Shown: one piece after another, positions 3,214-14,471 of the stretch | Position numbering within the stretch: position 1 is the stretch's first letter | Layout: the number at the start of each line of letters is the position of its first letter | Assembly (NCBI GenBank): GCA_009691765.1 | Contig: SIAO01000001.1 | Coordinates: 62,001-126,000, forward strand | Direction of reading: 5' to 3' | Origin: Planctomycetota bacterium | GTDB lineage: Bacteria; Planctomycetota; GCA-002687715 | DNA: 64,000 nt | Notes under the pieces: generated by a model | Databases searched by the model: none | Told to the model about the DNA's origin: nothing | The model's input: only the letters and a program-made list of their open reading frames with translations | Position numbers and translations under genes: made by a program

Positions 3214-3681
3214 TCAAGAATCAGAGTTGGATTCAGGCTCCGTGCCTGGATTGGATACTGAACCCGAGGCATGTCCAGTTTCTGAAGCTGTTGTCGCATC
3301 CGAGGCCGGGATGGCGGGCGTTTCGTGACGCGCATCGTCTTCAGCCCGGGCGTCGCGGATGAGGCGCGTCATGCGGTCGACACCCTCGATCGAATCGTCG
3401 AAGGCGAAAGTGATGATGGGCGCGCGGCGCAAGCGCATGGATTCGGCGATGGCGCGCTGCACATAAGGCGTTGCCGCTGTCATGGCCGCAGCGGTTCTGC
3501 GGCGTGCGCCGCCTTCTTCGAGGCAGGACCAGAAGAGGATGCAGGTTTCGAAATCTGTGCTGAGCTTCGCGCGCGTCACGGTGACCATGCCGATGCGCGG
3601 GTCCGCGAGGTCGCGTTGGATGACCGTGGCAGCCTTGCGCAGGATCGCGTCTTGGAGCCGCTGCAAACCGCGCGAGGCCAT
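3214..3681 (-). CDS. rbfA: Ribosome-binding factor A
   Basis: 155 residues. Residues 1-115 match RbfA: the basic N-terminal helix, the 'DPRIGMVTVTRAKLSTD' strand and the 'APIITFAFDDSIEGVDRM' segment. RbfA is a KH-fold factor that binds immature 30S subunits and helps 16S rRNA 5'-end maturation. The last 40 residues are an acidic, Ser/Thr-rich tail not needed in the E. coli protein. It is the last gene of nusA-infB-rbfA, 31 bases after infB, with GGAGAT before its start. In this context the identification is secure. Confidence 0.93.
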   Translation of the reverse strand: MASRGLQRLQDAILRKAATVIQRDLADPRIGMVTVTRAKLSTDFETCILFWSCLEEGGARRRTAAAMTAATPYVQRAIAESMRLRRAPIITFAFDDSIEGVDRMTRLIRDARAEDDARHETPAIPASDATTASETGHASGSVSNPGTEPESNSDS

Positions 3682-3712: not shown

Positions 3713-6358
3713 TCACAGAGAACGTTTGATCTTCTCGACATCGAAGGCCGTGATGACGTCACCTTCTTCAATGTTTTCGAAGCGAGCGATGACCATGCCG
3801 CATTCCAAACCGTCTTTGACCTCTTTGACGTCGTCTTTGACGCGCTTGAGAGATTCAAGGCTCGTGTCGGAAGCAACGACGATGCCGCCGCGCGAAACGC
3901 GAATGTGGCTCGTGCGCTTGATGAGGCCTGACGTGACCATGCAGCCCGCGATGGTGCCGATGCGTGACACTTTCCAGACTTGGCGGACTACGGCTTCGCC
4001 GACGATCGATTCGCGCAGTTCTGGTGCGAGCTTGCCTGCGAGTGCATCGCGCAATTCTTCGATGAGCTTGTAGATCACCTGATAGATGCGGATTTCAACG
4101 CGCGAACGATCGGCAAGCTGGCGTGCGCCCATGTCGGCGGACACGTGGAAGCCGAGGATGACAGCGTCCGATGCGTCTGCGAGCGCCACATCGGTTTCGG
4201 TGATGCCACCGACGGCTGCGTGGATGATCTCCGGACGGATTTCCGGGTGGGTGATGTCGGCGATTTCCTTGCGCAACACTTCGAGCGAGCCAGTGACATC
4301 GCTCTTGATGATGAGCTTGAGAGAAGCGACGCCCTTGCTGTGAAACAGGCTTTCGAGCGAGATGTGCGTGGCTTTGGCGATTTCTTTCTCGCGCATGAGC
4401 ATCGCGCGTCTGCCCGCGATCTCTTTGGCTTTGTCCAAGCTCTCGACCACATAAAACTTGTCGCCGGCTTTGGGCAGTTCGTTCAATCCAGTGATTTCGA
4501 CAGGCATTGATGGCCCGGCTTCGGCGATATTTTTGCCGCTCGGTCCTTTGATGGCCCTGATGCGCCCATAAGCAACGCCGCATAAGAAGATGTCGCCGCG
4601 ACGCAGCGTTCCATCGTTGATGATGAGACGCGCGACGCTGCCCTCGCCTTTGCTTTGCTGCGCTTCGATCACGGTGCCGATGGCAGGCCGCGTCGGATCT
4701 GCGCGCAATTCCAAGATGTCGGATTCGAGCGCGAGATGCTCAAGCAGTTCTTGAATGCCCTGCTTGGTGGTCGCGCTGGTTTCGATGATGGTCGTTTGAC
4801 CGCCCCACTTCTCGTCTTGCAGCCCTTCGATGGCCAGTTCTTGGCGCACGCGCAAGAGGTTGGCTTCGGGCTTATCAATTTTGTTGAGCGCAACCACGAT
4901 CGGGACGTTCGCGGCCTTTGCGTGAGCGATCGCTTCCTTGGTCTGTGGCATCACGCCGTCATCGGCGGCCACAACCAACACGACCACGTCGGTGACTTGA
5001 GCACCGCGCGCACGCATTTCCGTAAACGCTCTGTGGCCAGGAGTATCGAGGAACACCACTGCACGCCCATCGGGGAGGTCCACGCGTGTGGCTCCGATGT
5101 GCTGCGTGATTCCACCGTGCTCTTTCGAGGCCACATTGGTCTTGCGAATGGCGTCGAGGAGCGAGGTCTTGCCGTGGTCGACGTGTCCGAGGAAGGTGAT
5201 GATCGGAGCACGCGTGACGCCCGTGCCCGAACCAGGGCGCGTAGCTTCCGCGATGACCTCTGTCTCAATGTCCTGCTTCTCTTCGCAGGTGATTTCGCAG
5301 TTCAGTTCGATACCGAGGAGCTCGATCGTGTCTTTGTCCAGCGGATCGTTGATTTTCACCATGCGCTTGTGATTCACGAACAAGCGTTGGATCAGCACGT
5401 TGGCCTTCACGGCCATTTGTTCTGAGAGGCCCTTCACGGTCAGTGGCAGTTGAACAGTGAGTTTCTCTGGAACCTGAACCGCATCAGGGCGCGGCTTGCC
5501 CCGTGAATCAACAGTGCGGTCGCCAGGGCGTTGATCGCGCGACATGGGCCCGCGTGGTCCCATGGGGCCGGGCCCGCGACGACCAGTGACCACGAAAGTG
5601 CGTGATCCGCCATCGGTCCGCGTTGCAATTAGTCCGTTATGGCCAGGACGCTGCACTTGTGCGGGAAGTTCTTTGCGCCCGAGAATTTCAGCCGTGCGCC
5701 GCGGAGGCAGCACTTTGCTGGGGCCGGCGGCATCAGGAGTGCGTAGCGGTGTCGTTCCTGCGATGACGCGCACCACGCGGGTCGGGGGAGCGCTGAGCCT
5801 TTGTGGTTCCATGCGCTGCTGGTCGGGCGGGCGTGGAGCAATGCTCGGCCTTACACCTGCGCGCTGTACGGCAACGAGGCGAGTTGGGGCGCTGCCGGGA
5901 GCAGGCGCTCGGTCCGATTCAGCATCGGGTTGTGCTTGTTTGGGAGATTGCGGCTGCGCTTGCGTGTGTGGATTTGTCAGCGTTTGTGTTTGCGGTTGCG
6001 CTGTGGCGCCTGCGCGCGCGGCAACCACTCGCACCACTGTCGTCTTTACGGTGTGCGTTGCGGGTGAGCTTTGCGGCGACGCACTCGTACGCTCGAGAGT
6101 GGCTTCTGCAACTACGTCAGAGGTGCTGCTATCGGCTGGCGCTGCGGCAGCAACAACTTCCGGTGCTGGCGCAGGAGCAACTGCTATGGGCTTCAGGTCT
6201 TCGAGGAACGCGCGGAGCATCATCTCCTCGTGCGCCTCGAGCGCGGCCATGTGATTCTTGAGATCTATGCCGTGGCGTGTCGCTTCCTCAAGGATCAACT
6301 TGGAGTCGATCCCGAGTTCCTTCGCCAGCTGATGTACGCGCGTCTTCTTGGTCGCCAT
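3713..6358 (-). CDS. infB: Translation initiation factor IF-2
   Basis: 881 residues, a full-length IF-2. The N-terminal IF2N helical domain (1-55) is followed by a long low-complexity linker rich in Ala, Pro and Gln (60-290), a second IF2N-like domain (295-370), and the GTPase domain. That domain has G1 GHVDHGKT at 391-398, DTPGH at 438-442 and NKID at 492-495. The C-terminal beta-barrel and initiator-tRNA-binding domains follow. It places fMet-tRNA on the 30S subunit and promotes subunit joining. It begins 12 bases after the nusA stop, so the two are probably co-transcribed. Confidence 0.97.
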
Positions 6359-6370
6359 TGGCTAAGAACA

Positions 6371-7435
6371 TCACTCCTGGGGCGCGCTGGAATCCGCTGA
6401 TGGGGCCGGAGCCACACCTTGCGCTGGCGGTGTCAGGCGGTCCTGGGGCAGGCCCGCAGTATAGATCTCGTTGTCCGTAGTGGCCGCAGCTTGGATACTC
6501 GCGTCTTTGGCACTGAGGATGTTGATGTTCCAGTCGGTGAGCTTCGTCGCAAGGCGCACGTTCTGGCCTTTCTTGCCGATAGCCAGCGACAAGAAATCTT
6601 CGGGCACGACCACGTCAGCTTGGCGCGCTTCGTCGTGGAGCGTAATGCTCTCGATTTCTGCGGGTTTCAAAGCATTCATGATCAGCACTTCCGCTTCTTC
6701 GCTCCAGCGGATGACGTCGATCTTCTCACCGCCGAGTTCGTCCGTGACATTGCGGATGCGGCTGCCGCGCACACCGACGCACGCACCGACGCAATCCACG
6801 CGCTGGTCGTACGAGTAAACCGCCATCTTGGTGCGATAGCCGGGCTCGCGCACGAGGCGCTTGATCTCAAGCGTGCCTTCCGCAATTTCCGGCACTTCGA
6901 GTTCGAAGAGTCGGCGAATGAAATCTTCGCTGGTGCGCGAAAGCTCCACTTGCACACGCGCGCCAGTGACACGCACGTCCTTGATAATGGCGCGCAAGCG
7001 GTCGCCGACGCGGGGAGTTTCGCCACGGATGCGGTCGGTGCGACGCAGCACGCCTTCGGTCTTGCCGAGCGTCACCACAATGTCATCGCGCTCGAAACGC
7101 ACGACTGTGCCAGTGATGAGTTCGCCACGGCGTGAGGCGTACTCGCTCATGACGGAGCTTTGTTCGGCTTCGCGCACTTTTTGAATGATGACTTGCTTGG
7201 CGGTTTGTGCGGCAATACGTCCGAGGTCGGCGGCGTTGATCGCCACCCCATCTTTGGATGCGGTCAGTTCGCCGTTCTTTCGGTCGATACGGACTACGAG
7301 CTCGACGCTGTCTTCGTAGCGCTTGCGCACAGCGGATTCGATGGCCGCCTCCAGCCCCTGGATTAAGATCTCGGGGTCGATGTCGCGCTCTCGGTGGATC
7401 ATGTCCACCAGTCTGAGCAATTCGGCACCATTCAT
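6371..7435 (-). CDS. nusA: Transcription termination/antitermination factor NusA
   Basis: 354 residues: N-terminal RNA-polymerase-binding domain (1-100), S1 domain (about 104-170), and two KH domains with 'GVRGSRI' (221-227) and '[12 protein letters not shown]' (285-296). It lacks the two C-terminal acidic repeats of the E. coli protein and is close to the short Bacillus form, with a Pro/Ala-rich tail instead. The frame is open 54 codons further upstream, but that extension runs through a terminator hairpin and up to a -35 box and has no NusA similarity, so I place the start at the ATG at 7435. rimP, which usually precedes nusA, is absent. Confidence 0.95.
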
Positions 7436-7501
7436 GCGTCTCTCCGCACCCGGCCGTCTCCGCATGGCGGAAAGCGACCCTGCCGCAGCCACTACTGCGG
7501 T

Positions 7502-7535
7502 AAAAAAAGACGAAGCCCGCGGCGAGCGCCTCATC
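7502..7535 (-). terminator. Intrinsic terminator in the nusA leader (probable attenuator)
   Basis: Read on the minus strand, an 8-bp stem (GATGAGGC pairing with GCTTCGTC, two G-U pairs) closes an 11-base GC-rich loop and is followed at once by seven T residues. It lies 66 bases before the nusA start codon. The upstream gene at 7661 is divergent, so no leftward gene exists for it to terminate. The likely role is attenuation of nusA-infB-rbfA. Confidence 0.7.
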
Positions 7536-7540
7536 CACCA

Positions 7541-7561
7541 GCCTTGTATGGACAACAAAGC
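7541..7561 (-). other. Upstream hairpin in nusA leader
   Basis: On the minus strand, GCTTTGT and ACAAGGC can form a 7-bp stem (one G-U pair) around a 7-base loop, six bases before the terminator hairpin. It could be part of a regulatory leader fold. No mutually exclusive antiterminator was identified by eye. Confidence 0.4.
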
Positions 7562-7578
7562 CCACACTTGACCTTGGC

Positions 7579-7607
7579 ACGGTAGCCGAGGCCCCAAGCC
7601 GAGTCAA
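7579..7607 (-). promoter_or_regulatory. Candidate promoter of nusA-infB-rbfA
   Basis: On the minus strand: TTGACT (7607-7602), a 17-base spacer, then TACCGT (7584-7579). The -35 matches consensus at five of six positions and the -10 at three of six. Transcription would start near 7572, giving a leader of about 135 bases that contains both hairpins. Confidence 0.5.
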
Positions 7608-7660
7608 GGAACGGAAAGTATCATCTGGCATCGACTTCAGCTCAAACGCAGGAGGCTCCG

Positions 7661-8959
7661 TTGGACATCGCTCGACGTCAACTTGCTGTGCCCGTAGTGG
7701 CTGCGCTCCTCGGGATCGCGCTCGTCCTCGGCACCATCGCCTTCGGTCGCAACCGTGTCTCTGACTTCATGGACACGGCGTTGTACCGCGCCGAATCTGA
7801 AAGCGCGGAGTGGTTGGGCATGCGTGCTTACGCGGTGTTCTTGGAACAAGCGCCTGGCATCGACGCAGCTTCGCAGCGCGCTGACCCTTCGAATCCGCGC
7901 TTGTGGCAAGCCTGCTTCCACACCATCGTTCTTGAGTTCGCGCGCTACCCCGGCTACCGCGGCGTTGCGCTTACTGTCGGATGGGCTGAGTTGGCAGATG
8001 CTGAGTTGGCAGATGCTGAGCCTAAAGATGGCATTAAGTCAGCGTTGCTGGATCACATCAAGGGCACTGACAAGGTCAGGCGCCGTGCAGACGGTGTTGT
8101 GTTTTCCACAGTGTCAGTACCCAATTGTCCGCAAGTGCGCATGGCTCTTGCTCGCACTAATGCGCTGCACCTTGAGGAGCGCGCTGGTTTGATGAACTTC
8201 GTGGCCTTCGTTCCAGTCGCTGTTGCGGTGGCTGCTTGGGTGATCGTGCTTTCGTTCTGGTACTTCGGGCGTGGCGTGCGCCGTGTGTTGTTCGAACGCG
8301 AGCAAGCGCGTTTGCGCATGGCCAATCTCTCTGATGCCGCACGCGGCATTGCCCACGAAGTGCGAAACCCTCTGAATGCGGTGTCATTGACATTGCAATA
8401 CATGCAGCGCTTGGCAGAGCGCCGCGGGGCGTTGCCCAGCGAGGCCGAGTTCACACGCATCCATGCGGAACTCCAGCGCGTGAATACGGTAGTGGACGGA
8501 TTCGTTCGTCTCGCACGCGCCGACGAGTTTCAGTCGCAGCGTTTTGATTTGAGCGTGATGCTCCAAGACGTGGATGCAGAACTACGCGCTGCGGAACGCA
8601 TCATTCCTTGCAACATGACGCCGGTGCGAGAGCTCTGGGTGGACGGTGATCGCGTGCGCCTAGCTGAGGTGGTGCGCACGCTCTTGCGTCACATGTCTCA
8701 TTCCGGCGCCAGTGCGTTGAAGGTGAGCGCTAACGCAGCAGGCGGAAGTGTGCTCGTTCGGATCGAGCCCGTGCATACGCCGGAAATCACTACGGCGGAC
8801 GCAACAGCGTCGCGCTCCACGCGCCCGAACAGCCCGCTCTTGGTGCATACACTTTCGCGGCTGGTGCTCGAAGCCCACGGAGGCAGTTTCTCGGTGGAAG
8901 TCGCCGCTGATGGTGCCGAAAGCTTGCAGTTGCGTTTGCCTCAGGCGCAGCGGGAATGA
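7661..8959 (+). CDS. Sensor histidine kinase with degenerate ATPase domain
   Basis: 432 residues. Two membrane segments (about 10-28 and 180-202) flank an extracytoplasmic sensor region. A HisKA dimerisation domain carries the H-box HEVRNP with the phospho-acceptor at His232. The C-terminal region sits where HATPase_c should be but has no recognisable N-box Asn, no DxGxG motif and no glycine-rich G2 box. Only a final 'EAHGG' resembles the family. The E-x-x-N motif next to His232, linked in HisKA proteins to phosphatase activity, is kept. It starts with TTG preceded by GGAGG at 7651-7655. The NtrC-type regulator follows 35 bases later and is the obvious partner. Confidence 0.85.
   Translation: MDIARRQLAVPVVAALLGIALVLGTIAFGRNRVSDFMDTALYRAESESAEWLGMRAYAVFLEQAPGIDAASQRADPSNPRLWQACFHTIVLEFARYPGYRGVALTVGWAELADAELADAEPKDGIKSALLDHIKGTDKVRRRADGVVFSTVSVPNCPQVRMALARTNALHLEERAGLMNFVAFVPVAVAVAAWVIVLSFWYFGRGVRRVLFEREQARLRMANLSDAARGIAHEVRNPLNAVSLTLQYMQRLAERRGALPSEAEFTRIHAELQRVNTVVDGFVRLARADEFQSQRFDLSVMLQDVDAELRAAERIIPCNMTPVRELWVDGDRVRLAEVVRTLLRHMSHSGASALKVSANAAGGSVLVRIEPVHTPEITTADATASRSTRPNSPLLVHTLSRLVLEAHGGSFSVEVAADGAESLQLRLPQAQRE
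7988..8017 (+). repeat. 15-bp direct tandem duplication inside the sensor kinase gene
   Basis: GAGTTGGCAGATGCT occurs twice in tandem and keeps the frame, producing the peptide ELADAELADA in the sensor region. It looks like a recent in-frame slippage duplication. Confidence 0.9.
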
Positions 8960-13484: not shown

Positions 13485-14471
13485 TCAATGGCTGGAAGGT
13501 AGGAGTGCTGCGAGGTCGGGAGCGAGGGGAGCGTAGAGGTGCAGTTCCGCTTTGGAGATTGGATGGGGGAAGCGCAGGCTCTCGGCATGGAGGGCTTGGC
13601 GCTCGAGGATAAGGCCGGATCTGTGAGTGAAGGGCTGTGATTGTTCGGGGTCGGGGTCGGGCACGCCATAGAGCCGATCGCAAAGCAGTGGGTGACCAAA
13701 GGCTTCGGCATGTACGCGGATTTGGTGTTGGCGACCGGTGAGAGGCAGGAAACGCAGCAGCGAGAATGTGCCGCAGCGCAGAAGTGTTTCGTAGCGCGTG
13801 AGAGCAAGGCGGCCGTCTTGCATCACGGCCATTTTTTGGCGGATGGCACTGTTGGTGTCGGAACCGATGGGCAAGTCGATTTCACCTTTGTCGTTGGCGG
13901 GTTCGCCGTGCACGAGGGCGAGGTAGGTCTTGCGCATGCGCCGGGTTTCAAAAGCGAGGCCGATGATCTTGCGCACATCAGGATCGGTAGCGAAGACCAA
14001 GACACCAGAAGTGTCTTTGTCGAGGCGGTGCACGATCATGGGAGCGCAGTTGCCCGGAGGCTTCGGTTCGCGCGCGTGGCGCGCATGCAGCACATTGAGC
14101 AGCGTGTCGTTCACGTAGCGGCCGACAGGATGCACCACGGTGCCGGCGGTTTTGTTGAGCACCATCATCCACGGGTCTTCATGCAGAAAGTTGAGCGGCA
14201 TGTCCAAAGGGATGTCCGAAGCCACGCCCGCCGCTTCGCCCACTTCCACGTTGATGCGCATGCCGGGTTGCATGCGCTGGGCTGGCCGTGCTGCTTGGCC
14301 GTCCACGAGAATCAACCTCTCGCGGATGCGGCGTTGCAAGTCGGCTCGTGAGCGCCACGGGAGCTCGCGAGTGAGCAGATGGTCTAGGCGCATGCCGTTG
14401 TCTTCGTCGGTGACGCAGATTTCAATGTGGGTGAGGGGGCTACCGATGTCGCGCGCCATGCGCTGGATCAT
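13485..14471 (-). CDS. RluA-family 23S/tRNA pseudouridine synthase
   Basis: 328 residues. An S4 RNA-binding domain (about 15-85) precedes the catalytic domain, whose signature HRLDKDTSG holds the catalytic aspartate. LTGRQHQIRVH is the second family motif. It isomerises specific uridines in rRNA or tRNA. The RluC or RluD subtype cannot be settled by eye. A second in-frame ATG lies 12 bases downstream of the chosen start. The gene is divergent from, and overlaps the upstream region of, the SpoU methyltransferase gene. Confidence 0.93.
   Translation of the reverse strand: MIQRMARDIGSPLTHIEICVTDEDNGMRLDHLLTRELPWRSRADLQRRIRERLILVDGQAARPAQRMQPGMRINVEVGEAAGVASDIPLDMPLNFLHEDPWMMVLNKTAGTVVHPVGRYVNDTLLNVLHARHAREPKPPGNCAPMIVHRLDKDTSGVLVFATDPDVRKIIGLAFETRRMRKTYLALVHGEPANDKGEIDLPIGSDTNSAIRQKMAVMQDGRLALTRYETLLRCGTFSLLRFLPLTGRQHQIRVHAEAFGHPLLCDRLYGVPDPDPEQSQPFTHRSGLILERQALHAESLRFPHPISKAELHLYAPLAPDLAALLPSSH

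Follow-up and report, generated by a model that had tools for sequence, protein, structure and literature searches.

A lone terminator between promoter and nusA in Planctomycetota as a probable attenuator of the nusA-infB-rbfA operon

Background

Outside Planctomycetota, the operon that carries nusA usually starts with rimP. The primary paper on autoregulation through the nusA leader of Bacillus subtilis is reportedly that of Mondal et al. 2016. As summarised in a review (PMC12288461), termination in this leader is stimulated by NusA and autoregulates nusA. Terminators that depend on NusA or NusG are characterised by weak hairpins and by distal interruptions of the U-tract (PMC8060035). The rimP-leader, presented as the most ubiquitous transcription attenuator, comprises a GGGc(...)gCCC terminator without an antiterminator, and NusA was favoured as its effector, with the choice between NusA and RimP left open (Naville & Gautheret 2010, PMC2965389). 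In the rimP-nusA leader of Streptococcus agalactiae, a short and a long transcript arise from one start, the short one ending at an intrinsic terminator (PMC4448216), and in the metY-rimP-nusA-infB operon of E. coli two terminators, t1 and t2, precede rimP and NusA exerts feedback (PMC6511841). Autoregulation by NusA is thus a plausible idea and not a new one, having been proposed in 2010 as the rimP-leader.

Here we describe the nusA leader in a 64,000-nt stretch of a contig from a member of Planctomycetota, referred to below as the window. Like the B. subtilis nusA leader, it has a terminator ahead of the nusA operon and no antiterminator; the two differ in that in B. subtilis the action of NusA has been shown and rimP comes first, whereas the element of the window's genus has an uninterrupted T7 and a predicted response to NusA. 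The S. agalactiae leader likewise places an intrinsic terminator before the operon, but it is 31 nt long and leads into rimP, as compared with about 70 nt predicted here and nusA as the first gene (PMC4448216). The E. coli operon also has terminators ahead of it, but there more than one promoter is used and a tRNA gene and sites for RNase III are included, instead of one promoter and one terminator (PMC6511841). What the rimP-leader has in common with the window is a lone premature terminator with no visible antiterminator before a nusA/infB operon; in the window, however, the element lies directly before nusA, and the GGGc...gCCC motif is missing from the window's genus. What is new is that the element stands before an operon headed by nusA, with no rimP, and that this genus has lost the motif.

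Results

The nusA leader in the window

The first gene of the operon in the window is nusA, not rimP, and it is followed by infB and rbfA, as identified with Pfam (Table 1). Direct reading confirmed the leftward promoter given in the preliminary description, and the terminator reported there, an 8-bp stem plus T7, agrees base for base, with 66 nt between the end of the T7 and the nusA ATG at 7435. Two of the eight stem pairs are G.U, and folding gives a minimum free energy of about -11 to -12.5 kcal/mol. Set against the weak terminators that depend on NusA, the site is mixed: the two G.U pairs and the long loop would weaken it, but its T7 is uninterrupted and a G-C pair closes the stem. A generic terminator scanner assigns this site a low rank because the loop measures 11 nt. 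The 64-kb window contains four T7 runs on both strands, and only the one in the nusA leader follows a strong hairpin; the exact stem-loop pattern occurs once in the whole genome. Elsewhere in the window, a terminator-like hairpin with T6 at 13811-13837 on the plus strand lies inside the coding region of a pseudouridine synthase encoded on the opposite strand, and may end a plus-strand transcript.

Table 1. Features of the nusA leader and its surroundings (window coordinates)
Feature	Position	Strand	Basis or details
Sigma-70-type promoter TTGACT-N17-TACCGT	7579..7607	-	Read directly; TTGACT 7607..7602, TACCGT 7584..7579
Upstream hairpin GTGTGGGC-TTTGTT-GTCCATAC	7546..7567	-	Folding; not a conserved part
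Terminator stem-loop, 8 bp, 11-nt loop	7509..7535	-	Arm GATGAGGC 7535..7528, arm GCTTCGTC 7516..7509
T7 tract, predicted 3' end of the short leader RNA (~70 nt)	7502..7508	-	Direct reading
Post-terminator hairpin CCGCAGT-AGTG-GCTGCGG	7483..7500	-	Pairs kept in three species
nusA ribosome-binding site GGAGAG	7440..7445	-	Direct reading
nusA, 354 aa, NusA_N + S1 + KH domains	6371..7435	-	Pfam
infB (IF-2)	3713..6358	-	Pfam
rbfA	3214..3681	-	Pfam RBFA
Divergent histidine kinase gene	7661..8959	+	HisKA

On its other side, nusA is flanked by a divergent histidine kinase gene, next to which comes a gene for a sigma-54-type response regulator. Across relatives, nusA was matched in 57 of 59, and the histidine kinase is its divergent neighbour in all six family species compared (G000-G005). 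As stated in the preliminary description, the terminator has no upstream gene to end; with the neighbour divergent here and family-wide, the possibility that it terminates an upstream gene was ruled out. The histidine kinase gene itself contains an in-frame tandem repeat (AELADAELADAE) at window positions 7978-8012.

Between the terminator and the nusA ATG no promoter-like site that could serve as a second promoter is present, either in the window or in its two congeners. Searches with Rfam release 15 covariance models, run with a limit of E = 10 across 7400..7660 and of E = 1 in the leaders of 16 related loci, returned no match, by which a riboswitch or other known RNA family was ruled out.

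Conservation within the genus

The window genome (G000) was compared with two other species of its genus, in which NusA is 91% (G002) and 79% (G001) identical. When the three leaders are aligned on the correct strand, both congeners are seen to retain the two promoter hexamers with their 17-nt spacer (TTGAC[TG]-N17-TA[CT]C[GC]T) as well as the terminator stem and the T-run. Conservation of hairpin and T-run in relatives was one of two points on which the preliminary description had staked its claim, and on this point the claim survives. Every pair of the terminator stem is retained across the three species where both sides have letters; at three of the pairs one side varies with pairing unbroken; this is conservation, not covariation, as among three sequences no pair has changed on both sides.

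The hairpin that the preliminary description placed after the promoter does fold, but it is paired in G002 and broken in G001 (75% of cells), and was therefore discarded as a functional part. A hairpin absent from that description, directly after the T-run, retains 7/7 pairs in the three species while its loop varies; for this GC-rich structure a role in pausing, in the stability of the read-through mRNA or in ribosome access may be considered. The leaders of G000 and G002 differ in length by 1 nt, just after the T-run. Since this difference shifts the frame, the leader contains no conserved coding extension; the open frame reaching up to 7597 is broken in G002, and was thereby ruled out as an N-terminal extension of NusA.

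The element across Planctomycetota

For a survey of the phylum, to which named matches assign the group, the region before nusA was read in 144 genomes from 65 families, and terminators were counted as carrying the signature (GTGGG..CCCAC type) if they combined a G[TC]GG 5' arm, a C-rich partner and a U-tract. Signature terminators precede nusA in 69/144 leaders, as compared with 1/144 on the antisense strand and 0-2/144 in shuffled sequences, and they are found in 39 of the 65 families, including the other genera of the window's own family. Terminators of any kind were counted in 113/144 leaders; we preferred the signature count because the generic one has a notable antisense background (32/224). 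Stem pairs outside the invariant G-C core change across families and mostly stay paired: depending on the family, the second position of the core is T-A or C-G, and the flanks have A-T, G-C or C-G. A strict whole-genome pattern (GTGGG N3-14 CCCACTTTTTT) gave 29 matches in 199 genomes, 23 of them within about 300 nt upstream of nusA, four elsewhere and two unplaceable (one at a contig end in G008, one in G169, where the nusA position is unlisted). Upstream of the terminator, a promoter of the form TTGACN-N16..18-TANNNT occurs in 46 of 104 leaders from the phylum, against 0.44 in shuffles.

The ten Brocadiales leaders have a nearly invariant promoter and terminator, separated by about 107 nt of diverged sequence. 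A conserved sensor in these longer leaders was ruled out because the interval between promoter and terminator diverges, with no strong conservation in it. The length of this interval is itself almost constant (L010, L031-L034, L038, L039, L042, L145 and L146).

Other arrangements were also encountered. A different stem, GGCCACG...CGTGGCC, precedes nusA in other families (L074, L082, L090, L112, L186, L189), with CCGGGTCAT variants in L119, L122, L140 and L202; it recalls the inverse motif reported for Gammaproteobacteria. A distance of 190-290 nt separates the terminator from nusA in L008, L012, L036 and L038, which could accommodate a longer leader or a small gene missed in annotation.

Relation to rimP

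RimP_N was detected in 20 of 199 Planctomycetota genomes, often weakly, in a search sensitive to clear matches only, so that non-detection is not proof of absence. Among genomes in which both were placed, it was never found on the nusA contig; the window genome gave no RimP_N match, and its two congeners did. The signature was present at none of the 20 rimP loci within the upstream sequence examined, and it was present at nusA in several of the rimP-bearing genomes (G016, G045, G053, G014 and G004). In other phyla (Nitrospira, Deltaproteobacteria, Bacillota) the same signature lies 535-625 nt upstream of nusA, roughly the space that a rimP gene and its leader would take up; the intervening gene is presumably rimP. 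The position of the window-type element directly before nusA is explained by rimP being detached or undetected. Judged by its genomic distribution, the element follows nusA, not rimP, and since it is found at nusA and at 0/20 rimP loci, NusA or its operon, rather than RimP, would be what matters.

Motif loss in the window's genus

The Planctomycetota relatives resemble the rimP-leader in having a G-rich 5' arm and a C-rich 3' arm. The GGGc(...)gCCC motif is absent from the terminator stem in the window and in both congeners, and is present at the same place in the other species of the family (G003-G005). The T7 is uninterrupted throughout the genus, and in two of the three species the stem has a G-C pair at its base. 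With 2.6-2.9 Mb, the genomes of this genus are smaller than those of the other family members (5.1-6.1 Mb). The genus has lost the motif and the interrupted U-tract while keeping the promoter, the terminator and their spacing.

In other respects the window agrees with the description of the rimP-leader: the terminator falls within the range of 4-130 nt before the first gene, and there is neither an antiterminator nor a larger conserved element, the upstream hairpin being unconserved, the Brocadiales interior diverged and Rfam without a match. The window element would therefore be functionally like the rimP-leader family, and because the motif has been lost it is not a member by sequence definition.

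Discussion

The window offers no upstream gene for the terminator to end and no second promoter behind it; the promoter and the terminator are conserved across the phylum, and the leader between them diverges. For these reasons, interpretation of the element as a transcription attenuator of nusA-infB-rbfA, as put forward in the preliminary description, is strongly supported by the sequence comparisons, and we take the element to be almost certainly of this kind. Transcription would begin about 7 nt past TACCGT; after about 70 nt of leader, RNA polymerase would either stop at the hairpin and T7 or continue into nusA. Abundant NusA on the elongating polymerase would favour pausing and hairpin formation and so increase termination in the leader, and scarce NusA would permit read-through; no antiterminator or ligand-binding fold would be needed. 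The sequences show the components, how they are arranged and how well they are conserved, and that there is neither an upstream gene nor a recognisable promoter downstream; actual termination, affecting a part of the transcripts and at a level set by NusA, is inferred. NusA is a likely effector, by analogy with B. subtilis and given that the element sits at nusA rather than at rimP, and a leader attenuator of nusA-infB-rbfA with NusA as its most likely controller is, on the whole, the probable explanation.

The evidence on NusA-dependence points both ways. In 30 of the 39 signature families the U-tract is without an uninterrupted T7 (a count made on nusA terminators alone), and interrupted U-tracts are typical of NusA/NusG-dependent terminators (PMC8060035), which argues for dependence. 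Against it stand the uninterrupted T7 of the window's genus and, in two of its three species, the stem-base G-C pair, features of terminators that need NusA less (PMC8060035), and the missing GGG/CCC motif counts against the explanation as a whole. The same uninterrupted T7, the lack of a conserved regulatory fold upstream of it in the leader and the persistence of a terminator whose stem has changed in sequence are also what would be expected if the terminator simply trimmed the promoter output by a constant, unregulated fraction. We consider this unlikely, as a weaker promoter would achieve the same, and the retention of one signature at nusA in 39/65 families together with the B. subtilis precedent favours regulation. 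If read-through is regulated, its level could be set by another factor, such as cold-shock protein antiterminators, NusG or an operon product, e.g. IF-2. Antitermination by the CspA family has been proposed for the E. coli nusA-infB region, as cited in PMC6511841, the window genome encodes one cold-shock-domain protein, and in B. subtilis terminators of this type are served by NusG and NusA together (PMC8060035); however, the E. coli data are inconsistent with Csp antitermination (PMC6511841), and RimP is disfavoured by an element that is not at rimP. Control by a factor other than NusA is accordingly quite improbable.

Two possibilities remain. The leader folds better than its shuffled versions (z -2.8) and contains extra hairpins, as would an attenuator that senses a ligand or the ribosome through an alternative antiterminator pairing, but the loss of the upstream hairpin in G001, the unconserved Brocadiales interior, the silence of Rfam over the window leader and the shortness of the leader make such a device highly improbable. 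The terminator might also be no attenuator at all: it might stop antisense or stray transcription, or mark where a separate small RNA ends, since the expected leader RNA of about 70 nt would be stable and could act on its own. With the promoter directed into nusA, no co-directional gene upstream and the position relative to nusA kept phylum-wide, this too is very hard to believe.

Returning to attenuation by NusA, the loss of the motif can be read in two ways: NusA may act without it, or control may have changed in this small-genome genus. A more far-reaching scenario, which we put forward tentatively and regard as doubtful, is that Planctomycetota, by separating rimP from nusA, reveal that the most widespread bacterial attenuator belongs to nusA, that NusA recognises the GGG/CCC hairpin with interrupted U-tract in its own leader, and that the small-genome genus then lost the motif and kept a plain terminator in place, passing from sequence-specific to generic NusA control.

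Conclusion

The control of nusA is among the most widespread of attenuators. The detachment of rimP from nusA in Planctomycetota constitutes a natural experiment on who senses what, and an element kept at nusA and absent at rimP speaks for NusA (or IF-2/RbfA) as what is being controlled. In the window's genus the two candidate ingredients are in turn separated, with the terminator kept and the motif lost, and its comparison with the rest of the family would tell whether NusA reads the motif or the terminator only.
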